Of a stretch of DNA of 64,000 nt, positions 35,072 to 61,215 are shown piece by piece; the stretch's first letter is position 1; every line of letters begins with the position of its first letter. Position numbers and translations under genes: made by a program. This stretch comes from Stutzerimonas xanthomarina DSM 18231. Its GTDB lineage: Bacteria > Pseudomonadota > Gammaproteobacteria > Pseudomonadales > Pseudomonadaceae. The DNA is taken from NCBI RefSeq assembly GCF_900129835.1, contig NZ_FQXA01000006.1, positions 186,001-250,000 of the forward strand, in the 5' to 3' direction. Under the pieces are notes generated by a model. The model searched no databases. It was not told where the DNA came from and saw nothing but the letters and a program-made list of their open reading frames with translations.

Positions 35072-36520
35072 ATGTCCAACCTGATTGCCGCCGGCTCGGC
35101 CGGCGAAACCTACAACTACGGCATCGTTCGTCGGTTTACCCTGATGACCCTGGCATGGGGCATTCTCGGCATGGGCCTGGGCGTGTTCATCGCCGCTCAA
35201 CTGGTCTGGCCGCAGCTTAATTTCGATCTGCCCTGGACCAGCTTCGGGCGTATCAGGCCGTTGCACACCAATCTGGTGATCTTCGCCTTCGGCGGTAACG
35301 CATTGTTCGCCACATCCCTGTATGTCGTACAGCGAACCAGCCGGGTACGGCTGATCTCGGACGTGGTGGCCAGCTTTGTGTTCTGGGGCTGGCAGGCGGT
35401 GATTGTTGCCATGCTGATCACTTACCCGCTGGGCTACACCACCTCCAAGGAATACGCGGAGATGGAGTGGCCGATCGCATTGCTGGTCACTTTCGTATGG
35501 ATTGCTTACATATGGCTGTTCTTCGGCACCATTGCCAAGCGCAGGGTCAGCCATATCTATGTCGGTAACTGGTTTTACGGGGCGTTCATCATCGTCACGG
35601 CGATGGTGCACATCGTCAACCACATGCTGGTACCCGTCTCGCTGTTCAAGTCGTACCCGATCTATTCGGGCGCGACCGACGCCATGGTGCAGTGGTGGTA
35701 CGGTCACAGTGTGGTCGGCTTCATCCTTTCGGTGGGCTTCCTGGGGATGATGTATTACTTCGTGCCCAAACAGGCAGAACGGCCGATCTACTCCTACCGC
35801 CTGTCGATCGTGCATTTCTGGGCAATCATCAGCCTGTACATCTGGGCCGGCCCACATCATCTGCACTACACCGCGCTGCCTGAGTGGGCGCAGAGCCTGG
35901 GCATGGTGATGTCGATCATCCTCCTTGCGCCAAGCTGGGGCGGCATGATCAACGGCATGATGACCCTTTCTGGCGCCTGGCATAAATTGCGCACCGACCC
36001 GATCCTGCGCTTCCTCGTCGTCTCGCTGGCGTTCTACGGCATGTCGACGTTCGAGGGCCCGATGATGGCGATCAAGACCGTCAACGCGCTGTCCCACTAC
36101 ACCGATTGGACCATCGGCCACGTCCATGCTGGCGCCCTCGGCTGGGTGGCGATGATCAGCATCGGCACGCTGTACCACATGATTCCCAAGCTCTGGGGCC
36201 GCGAGCAGATGCACAGCGTCGGTCTGATCAACGCGCATTTCTGGCTGAGCACCATCGGAACCGTGCTCTATATTGCCTCGATGTGGGTCAACGGCATCAC
36301 CCAGGGCCTGATGTGGCGGGCGATCAACGAAGACGGCACGCTCACCTATTCCTTCGTCGAAGCACTGGAAGCCAGCCATCCGGGCTATCTGGTACGTCTC
36401 GCAGGCGGTGGCCTTTTCGCCTTTGGCATGCTGCTGATGGCATACAACACCTGGTGCACCGTGCGTGCTGGCACACGTAACGTGCAGGCTTCGATTTCCG
36501 ATCTGGCCGCAGCGAGGTAA
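35072..36520 (+). CDS. ccoN: Orphan cbb3-type cytochrome oxidase subunit I
   Basis: A 482-residue catalytic subunit of a cbb3 oxidase with about 12 TM segments. All metal ligands are present: His65 in [10 protein letters not shown] (low-spin heme), His in [10 protein letters not shown] (CuB), Tyr in [12 protein letters not shown], the His pair in [10 protein letters not shown], and HVH in [13 protein letters not shown] (both hemes). No ccoO or ccoP follows, so it is an orphan isoform like CcoN3/CcoN4 of P. aeruginosa, which swap into complexes made with CcoO/CcoP from complete operons. ATG 35072 was chosen because it precedes the protein-like start [17 protein letters not shown]. The next gene begins 3 bases after the stop. 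Confidence 0.95.
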
Positions 36521-57370: not shown

Positions 57371-59059
57371 TCAAGCCTGTTCGCGCAGCTCGCGCCGCAG
57401 AATCTTGCCTACCGGCGTCATCGGCAGCGAATCACGGAACACCACGTGACGAGGGACCTTGTAGCCCGTGAAGTTCTCCCGGCAGTACGCCTTCAGCTCA
57501 TCGACGGTCAGGCTGGGGTCGCTGCGCACGGCGAACAATTTCACGGCTTCACCTGACTTTTCGTCAGGCACGCCGATCACTGCGCAGGCGGCCACCTTCG
57601 GATGTGCCATGACCACATCTTCGATCTCGTTGGGGTAGACGTTGAAGCCGGACACGATGATCAGATCCTTCTTGCGATCGACGATGCGAACAAAGCCATC
57701 CGCATCGATTACCGCAACATCGCCGGTCTTGAGCCAGCCCTCGGCATCCAGCACTTCGGCGGTGGCATCGGGACGTTGCCAATAGCCCTTCATGACCTGA
57801 GGACCTTTGACGCACAGTTCACCGCGCTCACCGAGAGGGAGTTCGCTGCCGTCATCGTCGATCACTTTCAACGTCGTGCCCGGCACTGGCAGGCCAACGG
57901 TCCCCAACCGTGAGCCGTCACCGTGGGGGTTGGCGCAGACCACGGGTGAGGTTTCGGTCAAACCATAGCCTTCGGTCACAGTGACGCCAGTCATGTCCTT
58001 CCAGCGCTCGGCCACTGCCGAAACCAGTGCCGTACCGCCTGAGTTGGTGCCTTTGAGCGGTGCGAAGTTGATTTTCTTGAATTCGGGATGCGACATGAGC
58101 GCAACAAACAGCGTGTTCAGTCCGAGGAAGGCCGTGAACTGCCACTTCTGCAGTTCCTTGACGAAGCCATCGATGTCGCGAGGGTTGGTGATCAACACGT
58201 TATGGTTGCCGGTCACCATCATGCACATGCAGTTAACCGTGAAGGCATAGATGTGATACAGCGGCAGGGGCGCGATCATGATCTCCTGCCCTTCCTTGAT
58301 GATCGTGTGCCCCTGCTCGTCCAGCTGCTGCATGTTGGCGTGGACCTGCTGCATATTGGCGACCAGATTGCCATGAGTCAGCATGGCGCCTTTGGCCACG
58401 CCAGTCGTCCCGCCGGTGTATTGCAGGACCGCAACATCGTCCAGCGTCAGCGAAACCGGTTTGAGCCCATGCCGCGCGCCATCACGCAGCACGTGCTTGA
58501 ACGACACGGACTGCGGCAGGCTGTACGCCGGCACCATCTTTTTCACATGCTTGACTGCGGCGTTGACCAGCAGCCCCTTGAGCGACGGCAACATGTCGCC
58601 GATACGCGCCTCGATGAGGACCTTGATGTCTGTATCGGGCAGTACCTCCTGTACCAGCTTGCCGAAGGTATTCAGGTATACCAGCGCCCGCGCGCCGGAA
58701 TCCTTGAACTGGTGACGCATCTCCCGCGCGGTATACAGCGGGTTGGTGTTGACCACGATCAGCCCGGCACGCAAGGCACCGAACACAGCAATAGGGTATT
58801 GCAGCAGGTTGGGCATCTGCACTGCGATGCGATCGCCGGGTTGCAGGTCAGTGTGATTCTGAAGCCAGGCCGCGAAAGCCTCCGAGTAACGATCCAGGTC
58901 CGCATAGAACAGCGTCACGCCCATGTTGCTGAATGCCGGACGGTCCGCGTGTGTCTTGCAGGAGCGCTCGAATACTTCCACAACCGAGCGAAAGCCGCCC
59001 ATATCCACGTCGTTAGGCACACCGGCCGGGCGTTTGTCATTCCAGAAGTCAGGTTGCAT
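57371..59059 (-). CDS. fadD2: Long-chain acyl-CoA synthetase FadD2
   Basis: A 562-residue paralogue of FadD1. It has YTGGTTGVAKGAMLTHGNLV, YGLTETSP, GWLKTGDVAVID, and VDRKKDLIIVSGFNVYPNEI. The N-terminus MQPDFWNDKRPAGVPNDVDM differs clearly from FadD1, and a short insertion (QLDEQGHTIIKEGQEIMIAP) sits before the substrate-binding loop. In P. aeruginosa the two synthetases differ in chain-length preference. The gene order phaJ1 - fadD2 - fadD1 is kept here, although the gene PA3301 that I recall between phaJ1 and fadD2 is missing. Confidence 0.93.
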   Translation of the reverse strand: MQPDFWNDKRPAGVPNDVDMGGFRSVVEVFERSCKTHADRPAFSNMGVTLFYADLDRYSEAFAAWLQNHTDLQPGDRIAVQMPNLLQYPIAVFGALRAGLIVVNTNPLYTAREMRHQFKDSGARALVYLNTFGKLVQEVLPDTDIKVLIEARIGDMLPSLKGLLVNAAVKHVKKMVPAYSLPQSVSFKHVLRDGARHGLKPVSLTLDDVAVLQYTGGTTGVAKGAMLTHGNLVANMQQVHANMQQLDEQGHTIIKEGQEIMIAPLPLYHIYAFTVNCMCMMVTGNHNVLITNPRDIDGFVKELQKWQFTAFLGLNTLFVALMSHPEFKKINFAPLKGTNSGGTALVSAVAERWKDMTGVTVTEGYGLTETSPVVCANPHGDGSRLGTVGLPVPGTTLKVIDDDGSELPLGERGELCVKGPQVMKGYWQRPDATAEVLDAEGWLKTGDVAVIDADGFVRIVDRKKDLIIVSGFNVYPNEIEDVVMAHPKVAACAVIGVPDEKSGEAVKLFAVRSDPSLTVDELKAYCRENFTGYKVPRHVVFRDSLPMTPVGKILRRELREQA

Positions 59060-59802: not shown

Positions 59803-60117
59803 CTGAATGCGATAAACCCTTTCGGCCGGCACGCCGATGGTTCGGCAGCTGCGGAACGACAATGGGGTCACGCTCAAGTGCGCCTGATTGGCGCCTTTTG
59901 CGCTTGATTGATCCTCGCGAGATGAGCTGCATCGGACTGCGGGAGTTGGGATTCGAGCGACACACTCAGCGACCCAGCTGGGTTGCGAATGATATAGACG
60001 GTTTTTCCGCCCGCGCACCGTGCCTGCGTGATCCGCCTCCGTTGATAAAAACGCAGGCAAAAAAAAGGGCGACCTAAGTCGCCCAAATGCCTTGCGTGCT
60101 CTGTACCACCGGCCGGA
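59803..60117. other. Gap between phaJ1 and ccoM
   Basis: These 315 bases hold no recognisable gene apart from the ccoM/PhrS terminator at their right end. In P. aeruginosa further genes lie here; their loss is the simplest reading. No remnant was recognised. Confidence 0.5.
60059..60084 (-). terminator. Intrinsic terminator of ccoM/PhrS
   Basis: A 7-bp GC-rich stem (GGGCGAC / GTCGCCC) with a 4-base loop followed on the minus strand by eight T residues, 34 bases after the ccoM stop. Strong, of the type used by Hfq-bound small RNAs. Confidence 0.93.
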
Positions 60118-60228
60118 TCAACGCTTCTTGTGCGCGTCCCGCCAGATGAAATATCCGAAACCTCCGAGGAAGGCGACCATAAGGCCGACCGTGACCACCC
60201 CTGCGAGCACCACATTATCGAGGAACAT
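60118..60228 (-). CDS. ccoM: cbb3 cytochrome c oxidase subunit CcoM
   Basis: A 36-residue single-TM protein, MFLDNVVLAGVVTVGLMVAF followed by LGGFGYFIWRDAHKKR. The pattern DNVVxAGVVTVGLMV and the FGxFIW-D-HK end match CcoM, the small subunit found in the crystallised cbb3 oxidase of P. stutzeri, where it helps assembly or stability. The TM covers residues about 6-29 with a basic cytoplasmic tail. GGAGG lies 9 bases before the ATG. It is far from any complete cco operon, as in other pseudomonads. The same RNA is probably the PhrS regulator. Confidence 0.9.
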   Translation of the reverse strand: MFLDNVVLAGVVTVGLMVAFLGGFGYFIWRDAHKKR

Positions 60229-60268
60229 GATTCCTTACCTCCAAGCTGTCTCGCTGTCTGATGGCTGC

Positions 60269-60274
60269 ATAGTT
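60269..60274 (-). promoter_or_regulatory. -10 element of ccoM/PhrS
   Basis: AACTAT on the minus strand has its centre 32 bases downstream of the centre of the ANR-like site, the spacing of class II FNR/ANR promoters. No -35 hexamer is needed or seen. Confidence 0.6.
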
Positions 60275-60296
60275 ACCCGTCTCACCGATTAAAAAA

Positions 60297-60310
60297 TTGA
60301 CCGACATCAA
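60297..60310. promoter_or_regulatory. ANR/FNR-type site upstream of ccoM/PhrS
   Basis: TTGACCGACATCAA differs from the consensus TTGAT-N4-ATCAA at one position. It lies 69 bases before the ccoM ATG, with a -10 element at the right distance. Induction at low oxygen by ANR is predicted. Confidence 0.8.
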
Positions 60311-60451
60311 CCCCACGAGACCTTTAGAAAAAGGCGCTGCGGGAGCTGATCCAGGTCAAGTATTCGGGGTATGAAGGCGAGTTGCCTTAGCGAGACGACA
60401 AGCTGCAGGCCATCGCGATGTCGCGGAGGGCGAAACGATGTGAGCGCGCTG

Positions 60452-60613
60452 TCAGCGTTTTTTCGGCTTGGTCTTGGGCTTCTTCTTCGGTTTGCTCAAC
60501 GGCAGCACCTGCTCGAAGGCCTGGCGCATCTCGACAAGGCGCTTTTCCTTGATGTCGTGGATGCGTTTTTCACGTTCTGCACTGAAGTCGATCAGCTTTT
60601 CGTCACTGCTCAT
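60452..60613 (-). CDS. Small charged protein with Lys/Pro tail, coupled to alkB
   Basis: A 53-residue protein: MSSDEKLIDFSAEREKRIHD, then IKEKRLVEMRQAFEQVLPLS and the tail KPKKKPKTKPKKR. The first part is a charged helix; the tail is nucleic-acid-binding in character. ATG 60613 overlaps the AlkB stop by four bases (ATGA), so the gene is co-translated with alkB. This suggests a link to DNA or RNA, but no function is known. The frame is open upstream inside alkB; the ATG chosen gives the coherent protein. Confidence 0.75.
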   Translation of the reverse strand: MSSDEKLIDFSAEREKRIHDIKEKRLVEMRQAFEQVLPLSKPKKKPKTKPKKR

Positions 60614-61215
60614 AAGCTCGGCTCGTCGATGATCTGGCGGAAAGTCAGGTTGAGGCGCGGTGCGCGAACCTGTCGTGTTCTGGCGATCTGATGTTGCCAA
60701 TGATGCTGGGTGAGACCGCTCATGACCAGCAGCGATCCATGCTCGAGCGCGATGGAGTGCTCAATACGGCTGGTTCCCTTGCGGCGAAAATCAAAGCGCC
60801 GCGTGGCGCCAAGATTGAGCGAGACCACCAAGGGCTGTCGTCCCAGCTCGCGTTCGTCATCGCTGTGCCAGCCCATGGCGTCCTGTCCGTCGCGATAGTA
60901 GTTGAGCAAGACACCATTCAGGTGCTTGCCGACCTGCTGTTGTACCCGCTGGCGGATATCGGCCAGCAGTGGCGTCCAGGCAAGCGGTTCGTGAGTGAGA
61001 CCTGAATACCGGTAGCGCGCATCAGGATCGCCATACCAGGCGACCAGTCGCGGCACGGCGATGCTGCGGCCATAGAGTTTGATCTGTGGCTGGGACCAAG
61101 GTGTCTGCGCGGAAAGCTGCGAAAGCCATTGTTCAGCAAGGCCTGCATCAACCCATCGCGGGAAGTAGCGCAGATCTGCATCAGGCAGATCGATCAGCTC
61201 GCTGTCGTCTGACAT
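60610..61215 (-). CDS. alkB: AlkB-family 2-oxoglutarate/iron dioxygenase
   Basis: A 201-residue Fe(II)/2-oxoglutarate dioxygenase of the AlkB family that removes alkyl groups from DNA or RNA bases by oxidation. The iron ligands are in MGWHSDDERELG (His-x-Asp), with a later His in GLTQHHWQHQIAR. The 2-oxoglutarate-binding Arg is in RLNLTFRQI. The substrate-lid part is PWSQPQIKLYGRSIAVPRLV with the YSGLTHEP turn. The length and wording are closer to the ALKBH2/3-like bacterial group than to E. coli AlkB. No Ada site was sought. It is the middle gene of three. Confidence 0.92.
   Translation of the reverse strand: MSDDSELIDLPDADLRYFPRWVDAGLAEQWLSQLSAQTPWSQPQIKLYGRSIAVPRLVAWYGDPDARYRYSGLTHEPLAWTPLLADIRQRVQQQVGKHLNGVLLNYYRDGQDAMGWHSDDERELGRQPLVVSLNLGATRRFDFRRKGTSRIEHSIALEHGSLLVMSGLTQHHWQHQIARTRQVRAPRLNLTFRQIIDEPSL

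Follow-up and report, generated by a model that had tools for sequence, protein, structure and literature searches.

A predicted PhrS-family RNA of Stutzerimonas xanthomarina contains the ccoM frame and is a candidate ANR-controlled dual-function transcript

The window analyzed here, a 64,000-nucleotide (nt) stretch of the S. xanthomarina DSM 18231 genome, contains a single gathering-level Rfam match, which is to the PhrS small RNA (sRNA) family (RF01673) and lies on the minus strand beside an AlkB-family gene (Table 1). The match scores 159.5 bits against a gathering cutoff of 37 (E = 3e-39). The predicted RNA is preceded by two ANR/FNR-like boxes and a -10-like element, encloses a short frame behind a ribosome-binding site, and ends in an intrinsic terminator. 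A first-pass annotation had described an RNA of about 204 nt with an ANR-like site carrying one mismatch, a -10 element at class II spacing, a 36-codon frame with a good ribosome site, and a strong terminator. All of these elements are in place, and the predicted length comes to 205 nt; what that list overlooked is the distal box, the creg pairing element, and a hairpin that precedes creg. The ANR consensus is TTGAT-N4-ATCAA, from which the proximal box TTGATGTCGGTCAA departs by one mismatch, and this box is centered 41.5 bp upstream of the first Rfam-matched base, at class II spacing. Conservation with PhrS extends over the full length of the Rfam model, and as far as the sequence can tell, the transcript is not much longer than 210 nt. 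From these signals, we infer transcription, translation, and regulation at the S. xanthomarina locus.

Table 1. Features of the PhrS/ccoM locus, in window coordinates.
Feature	Position	Strand	Basis
AlkB-family gene flanking the locus	60613..61215	-	Pfam PF13532, E = 1e-41; homologous order in the P. aeruginosa locus (L006)
Distal ANR/FNR-like box TTGACCTGGATCAG	60346..60359	-	Sequence; 49 bp upstream of TTGATGTCGGTCAA
Proximal ANR/FNR-like box TTGATGTCGGTCAA	60297..60310	-	Sequence and spacing
-10-like element TAACTA	60270..60275	-	Sequence alone
PhrS-family RNA, predicted transcript, 205 nt	60058..60262	-	Rfam RF01673, 159.5 bits, model 1-212, full length
Ribosome-binding site GGAGG	60238..60242	-	Sequence; 9 nt before ATG
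ccoM, 36-amino-acid frame plus stop (ATG at 60228, stop 60120-60118)	60118..60228	-	NF041600 equivalog, 74.2 bits; 5DJQ chain N, E = 5e-19; median pN/pS of 0.29 over 2,149 homologue pairs
Pre-creg hairpin, 5' arm, inside ccoM codons 27-32	60133..60150	-	Covariation with 3' arm
Pre-creg hairpin, 3' arm, stop codon to creg	60102..60120	-	Covariation with 5' arm
creg pairing element GAGCACGCAAGGCA	60088..60101	-	Letters identical to P. aeruginosa RNA positions 169-182; GCACGCAAGGC exact in 110/134 ccoM loci
Intrinsic terminator	60059..60084	-	Stem GGGCGAC-TTAG-GTCGCCC (60084-60067), then T8 (60066-60059); sequence and alignment

The product of the frame matches the curated NCBIfam equivalog model for CcoM (NF041600) at 74.2 bits, over a cutoff of 40 (E = 8e-21), and its residues 1 to 35 align without gaps with chain N of 5DJQ, the P. 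stutzeri cbb3 oxidase structure (E = 5e-19); no Pfam profile scored over its cutoff against the peptide. The window peptide is in these respects like CcoM of P. stutzeri ZoBell, a 36-amino-acid cbb3 subunit represented by the same chain and the same model. RF01673 and NF041600 each match the window's own genome once, both at this one place. Given the E values of the RNA and peptide matches, neither is a matter of chance, and a chance overlap of the two families was likewise rejected because their places coincide across the lists of family genomes. The best explanation is that CcoM is a single-helix subunit of the cbb3 cytochrome oxidase and that the body of the transcript is its mRNA. The papers on CcoM that were searched treat it as a small protein, whereas the window ccoM lies within a PhrS-family RNA; the word "PhrS" has 0 occurrences in PMC10433244 and PMC12350097. 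An excerpt of the former reports P. stutzeri proteomics in which CcoN and CcoP were higher in aerobic than in oxygen-limited conditions, a result that counts against the explanation favored here.

The same coincidence is found at the PhrS locus of P. aeruginosa. One genome in our collection (G118) belongs to P. aeruginosa or to a sister species very close to it, since the first 232 residues of its PqsR are identical to PDB MvfR at 231 positions. The gene order of the window, with an AlkB-like gene and a gene ending in KPKKR ahead of PhrS, recurs at the PhrS locus of this genome (L006); the genes on the other side differ. The 37-residue P. aeruginosa PhrS peptide scores 77.6 bits against CcoM, above the window peptide's own score, and creg occupies RNA positions 169 to 182, the span also given in an excerpt of PMC9308961. 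The window RNA thus shares with P. aeruginosa PhrS its family, its locus beside an AlkB-family gene, its frame, creg, terminator, and ANR-like boxes; the described target of PhrS is pqsR, however, and the window's genome has no detectable pqsR. The proposal of the first-pass annotation that PhrS and the ccoM mRNA are one and the same RNA is supported at the level of sequence, as the curated models for both match the same bases in the window and in P. aeruginosa. In the papers, as far as excerpts of them go, the PhrS peptide is unnamed or without a function, whereas in the window it is CcoM: publications dated 2021 and 2022 state that its function "has so far remained elusive" (PMC8395346), "remains to be elucidated" (PMC9308961), or is "currently unknown" (PMC8672173), and a 2017 paper (PMC5521070) places it among validated/functional small proteins, as "an unnamed protein." Among the literature listings and passages searched, none joins PhrS and CcoM; the original CcoM (mBio 2016) and PhrS (Mol Microbiol 2011) papers and a 2023 RNA interactome paper may carry the link.

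RF01673 matched 195 of 198 Pseudomonadaceae genomes at E ≤ 0.001, a few of them spuriously, with 181 over the cutoff, and CcoM matched 177 of the 198, with 176 over the cutoff. The RF01673 matches in at least two genomes (G012 and G040) are spurious, there being no creg in the sequence, and both are still counted in the 195; another genome (G179), matched at a looser limit alone and without creg, was dropped. Control genomes match RF01673 weakly below the cutoff, so subthreshold matches alone prove nothing. We read 165 loci of the family, a set deliberately enriched for exceptions, and found the CcoM frame in 134 and no such frame in 31. Among the 134 ccoM loci, CGCAAGG stands within 130 nt after the stop in 127 (about one is expected by chance, and one of the 127, GCGCCCGCAAGGCCGC, may be such a match), and GCACGCAAGGC is exact in 110. 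A TTGAY-N4-RTCA box lies within 160 nt upstream in 133, compared with none of the 134 downstream and a shuffle mean of 0.15, and two boxes 49 to 52 bp apart are present in 94.

The creg variants TGCATGCAAGGC and GCTCGCAAGGCC occur in two loci of genus g7 (L104 and L118) and in most of the genus g5 loci (L157 to L176), in a layout that is otherwise similar; in g5, the altered creg is GCTCGCAAGGCC, the 3' untranslated region (UTR) is often longer, and the terminator is different. Within genus g11, one genome (G010; L036 and L054) carries two tandem PhrS-like RNAs ~0.7 kb apart without a CcoM match, and another (G027; L039) has a CcoM-like frame that ends after 22 residues.

The ccoM frame is under purifying selection. 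Across 108 of the 134 loci, selected for an exact GCACGCAAGGC, an ATG start, and a length of 33 to 43 residues, the median pairwise pN/pS is 0.29 (2,149 pairs with pS of 0.15 to 0.6). Its presence also follows that of the oxidase. With ccoN scored at E ≤ 1e-100, ccoN and CcoM are both found in 174 of the 198 family genomes and neither in 16, with CcoM alone in 3 and ccoN alone in 5 (Fisher P = 1e-16, or 9e-7 without genus g6, values that ignore the relatedness of the genomes and hence are not true probabilities). Two of the five ccoN-only genomes also have no PhrS match at E ≤ 0.001, and these are perhaps assembly gaps. All 13 sampled genomes of g6 are without ccoN; two keep a diverged CcoM (L033 and L034, in G094 and G106, at 41 and 44 bits), one has a short remnant, and ten have none, the diverged forms representing either decay in progress or a new role. 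Ten genomes in which the RNA occurs without the frame were tested for ccoN, and since five of them retain a copy over the cutoff and five do not, cbb3 loss goes with ccoM loss and is not required for it. The tie between CcoM and cbb3, though strong, has exceptions. In the window's own genome (G000), three ccoN genes score over the cutoff. One of them, a third ccoN-type gene (TIGR00780 over the cutoff, Pfam COX1), lies within the window at 35108-36496 (+), about 24 kb from ccoM, and the other two copies are on contig C6, apart from it.

CcoM extends beyond the family. It was matched in 82 of 293 genomes across the order and, outside Pseudomonadaceae, in 69 of 279 genomes belonging to 15 families, and in 11 of these the score exceeds the curated cutoff. 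We read 67 of these 69 outgroup loci, covering 14 families (those of G215 and G315 were left out). An ANR/FNR-like box stands upstream of ccoM in 62 of the 67, in 13 families; the strict box pattern is present in 50, with 0 downstream and a shuffle mean of 0.07. CGCAAGG within 160 nt downstream was found in 1 of the 67. A pattern for the foot of the RNA, creg plus terminator, matched 14 of 14 Pseudomonadaceae genomes versus 15 of 279 other genomes of the order, where a reversed control pattern matched about as often (20 of 279). Among the 15 outgroup matches, 11 carry CGCGCAAGG in place of CACGCAAGG; of the other four, two were read and have no terminator. Because CcoM without creg, mostly boxed, occurs in other families of the order, the coding role appears to be the older one, as the first-pass annotation had suggested it might be. 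ANR-driven ccoM looks like the older form, to which creg was probably added in Pseudomonadaceae, the polarity being read from distribution rather than from a tree.

These data also bear on how much weight the frame deserves. PhrS could be primarily an sRNA in which the frame is incidental or late and, in most species, yields no functional cbb3 subunit; such a reading would suit the discovery of PhrS as an sRNA, an excerpt of PMC6700203 in which the internal open reading frame (ORF) was without effect on CRISPR regulation in PA14, and the absence of CcoM from some genomes that retain ccoN. It is difficult to reconcile, however, with creg-less and mostly ANR/FNR-boxed CcoM in other families of the order, with a pN/pS of about 0.3, and with the absence of CcoM where ccoN is absent, and we consider it very improbable.

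Within Pseudomonadaceae, the two modules come apart in both directions. Six g5 loci (L159, L160, L164, L167, L170, and L173) encode CcoM but show neither CGCAAGG nor an obvious terminator within 130 nt downstream of the stop. At the other extreme, creg is kept exactly in all 31 CcoM-less loci, each of which also has an ANR-like box; a pattern requiring creg and the box picked 16 of the loci, the other 15 did not come from this selection, and some of the 31 duplicate a species. Such creg-only forms are found in the P. oryzihabitans group, P. rhizoryzae, P. massiliensis, P. trivialis, P. poae, strains T1-3-2, M47T1, L18, and MWU16-30317, and a bog MAG. One of 17 pattern matches, from Desulfoferrobacter (L061), has no T-run terminator and was dropped, leaving the 16. 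The predicted sRNA-only transcript is about 60 to 85 nt long, with its own ANR-like box and terminator and usually a 5' hairpin, and the distance from box to creg is 63 to 68 nt in 11 of the 15 loci not selected by pattern, compared with about 200 nt in ccoM loci. Different short hairpins replace the ccoM tail in different groups (structure is weak in L059, L071, and the decayed L035), which suggests, from the groups rather than from a tree, that ccoM was lost several times independently. Both parts are thus under selection, ccoM as judged by its pN/pS and creg by its exactness in the ccoM loci and its retention in the 31 loci without the ORF.

Regulation by PhrS base pairing has been demonstrated in P. 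aeruginosa, according to excerpts of PMC8395346 and PMC6700203. The first-pass annotation considered pqsR probably missing from the window's genome, and no PqsR homologue was found there at E ≤ 1e-20; a search in which 11 first-look candidates were scored in each genome detected PqsR in 3 of the 198 Pseudomonadaceae genomes, the window's genome not among them. As creg is kept in nearly all loci read, it must have targets besides pqsR. With 195 of 198 genomes lacking PqsR, we take the activation of pqsR through uof to be a P. aeruginosa function and not one that defines the family. Upstream of pqsR in P. aeruginosa, the best duplex for creg (-18.3 kcal/mol) lies about 230 nt away, in keeping with the described interaction; a conserved pqsR site was rejected because the best sites near two other pqsR homologues are elsewhere. 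In our P. aeruginosa genome, the pqsR frame (G118:C1:4524217-4525210) is broken into two pieces that overlap but are not in the same frame, reflecting a frameshift or an assembly error.

We also sought the exact 11-nt creg complement, TGCCTTGCGTG, in 14 genomes and obtained 78 sites. At least 7 of the 30 loci examined are PhrS itself, and no called protein recurs among these 30 of the 78 sites; in P. aeruginosa, the complement occurs only in PhrS itself. Five copies about 250 to 355 bp apart in another genome (G016:C10:26485-27614) are probably a tandem repeat. Within the window, fadD (57371-59059, minus strand) contains a perfect complement at about 58768, about 280 nt into the frame, and fadD of another genome (G011; L287) has one at the same place, a coincidence that probably stems from codon use.

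The rarity of PqsR and the absence of a conserved target with an exact complement among the 30 sites examined would both be expected if the locus were, outside P. aeruginosa, merely the ccoM mRNA, with creg serving as a conserved 3'-UTR or stability element that does not act by pairing and PhrS regulation being a P. aeruginosa novelty. A mere mRNA tail should decay along with its gene, however, and creg, the ANR-like box, and the terminator persist after ccoM loss, even in ccoN-less genomes. We regard this alternative as unlikely.

The frame and creg are joined by a hairpin. Between the stop codon and creg lie 13 to 27 nt (median, 18), a stretch that pairs with the codons for F-I-W-K-D-(S/A). 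When 104 distinct RNAs were folded, at least four pairs joined the 16 nt before creg to the upstream region in 90 of them. Covariation was assessed over 96 distinct arm pairs, with 42 sequences aligned; matched arms averaged -14.3 kcal/mol versus -11.9 kcal/mol for permuted arms (z = -10.5, a value inflated by shared ancestry). A safer argument comes from grouping the loci by codon 30, which the covariation follows. For frames with AAA, CAG, or CGG, the best-pairing 3' UTRs are those of the same class, and for AAG frames, pairing is good with the AAG and AAA 3' UTR classes and poor with the CAG and CGG classes; in this table, the CAG class holds four loci only, and own-class means include each locus paired with itself. 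No arm covariation was detected in 65 outgroup ccoM loci without creg (z = 0.4), in the six ccoM-only g5 loci (z = 0.7), or in 15 g5 loci with the altered creg GCTCGCAAGGCC (z = -0.9). Because the stop is so close to creg and the hairpin uses coding bases, we infer that translation and creg use probably compete.

The hairpin is also relevant to whether the locus holds one gene or two. Two overlapping independent genes, one giving the ccoM mRNA and the other a creg RNA that is processed or has its own start and shares the 3' end, would explain how the RNA stands alone in sRNA-only species and why P. aeruginosa PhrS is given as 190 nt in an excerpt of PMC8545117, where it is also described as cosedimenting with Hfq. 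Against such an arrangement, the pre-creg hairpin is built in part from ccoM codons, there is one conserved promoter region, and the PAO1 PhrS of 213 nt reported in an excerpt of PMC9308961 spans the frame. Two separate genes therefore seem to us quite improbable.

Taken together, the locus is probably one ANR-controlled dual-function transcript, composed of a ccoM mRNA body and a 3' pairing sRNA end with hairpin, creg, and terminator. Low oxygen would activate ANR, which would switch on the PhrS/ccoM RNA; ribosomes would make CcoM for cbb3 from this RNA, and the same molecule would expose creg for the control of other mRNAs. A terminating ribosome would sit on the hairpin, near creg, so that translation would be coupled to regulation. 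An ANR-driven ccoM mRNA would have come first, with the creg/terminator module gained at the root of Pseudomonadaceae and with ccoM or creg later lost in separate lineages. More tentatively, an ancient ANR-driven oxidase mRNA may have been turned into a regulator by a 3' pairing module, its coding tail drafted into RNA structure. CcoM translation and creg exposure might then be coupled, with creg set against competing functions and peptide and RNA forming one low-oxygen switch, and the tail may survive as a minimal sRNA.

The dual-function RNA as a kind is already known. What is new here, as far as could be found, is the identity of the PhrS peptide across the family, the two-way separation of the modules, and the shared hairpin. 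In PhrS/ccoM, the protein would be built into a respiratory complex as a structural subunit, and the coding tail would form part of the hairpin before the pairing element, which is not known of SgrS/SgrT or VcdRP. Like these two, which an excerpt of PMC8672173 names as dual-function RNAs, PhrS/ccoM would carry a small protein and a pairing element on one transcript.

If the PhrS peptide is CcoM, the phenotypes of phrS deletions may combine the effects of losing an oxidase subunit and of losing the sRNA and may need to be read again, and the link of PhrS to hypoxia would gain a direct respiratory meaning. The conservation of creg where pqsR is absent implies that its main targets lie elsewhere. 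According to an excerpt of a 2025 review (PMC12101431), the bo3 oxidase genes cyoAB are expressed at a lower level under the influence of PhrS; were this effect direct, the RNA and the peptide would both act on one respiratory switch. The series of ccoM-only, dual, and sRNA-only loci offers a natural experiment on how mRNAs become regulatory RNAs, and if an ancient mRNA did become a regulator here, the series would have been caught in the act of passing from mRNA through dual-function RNA to sRNA.
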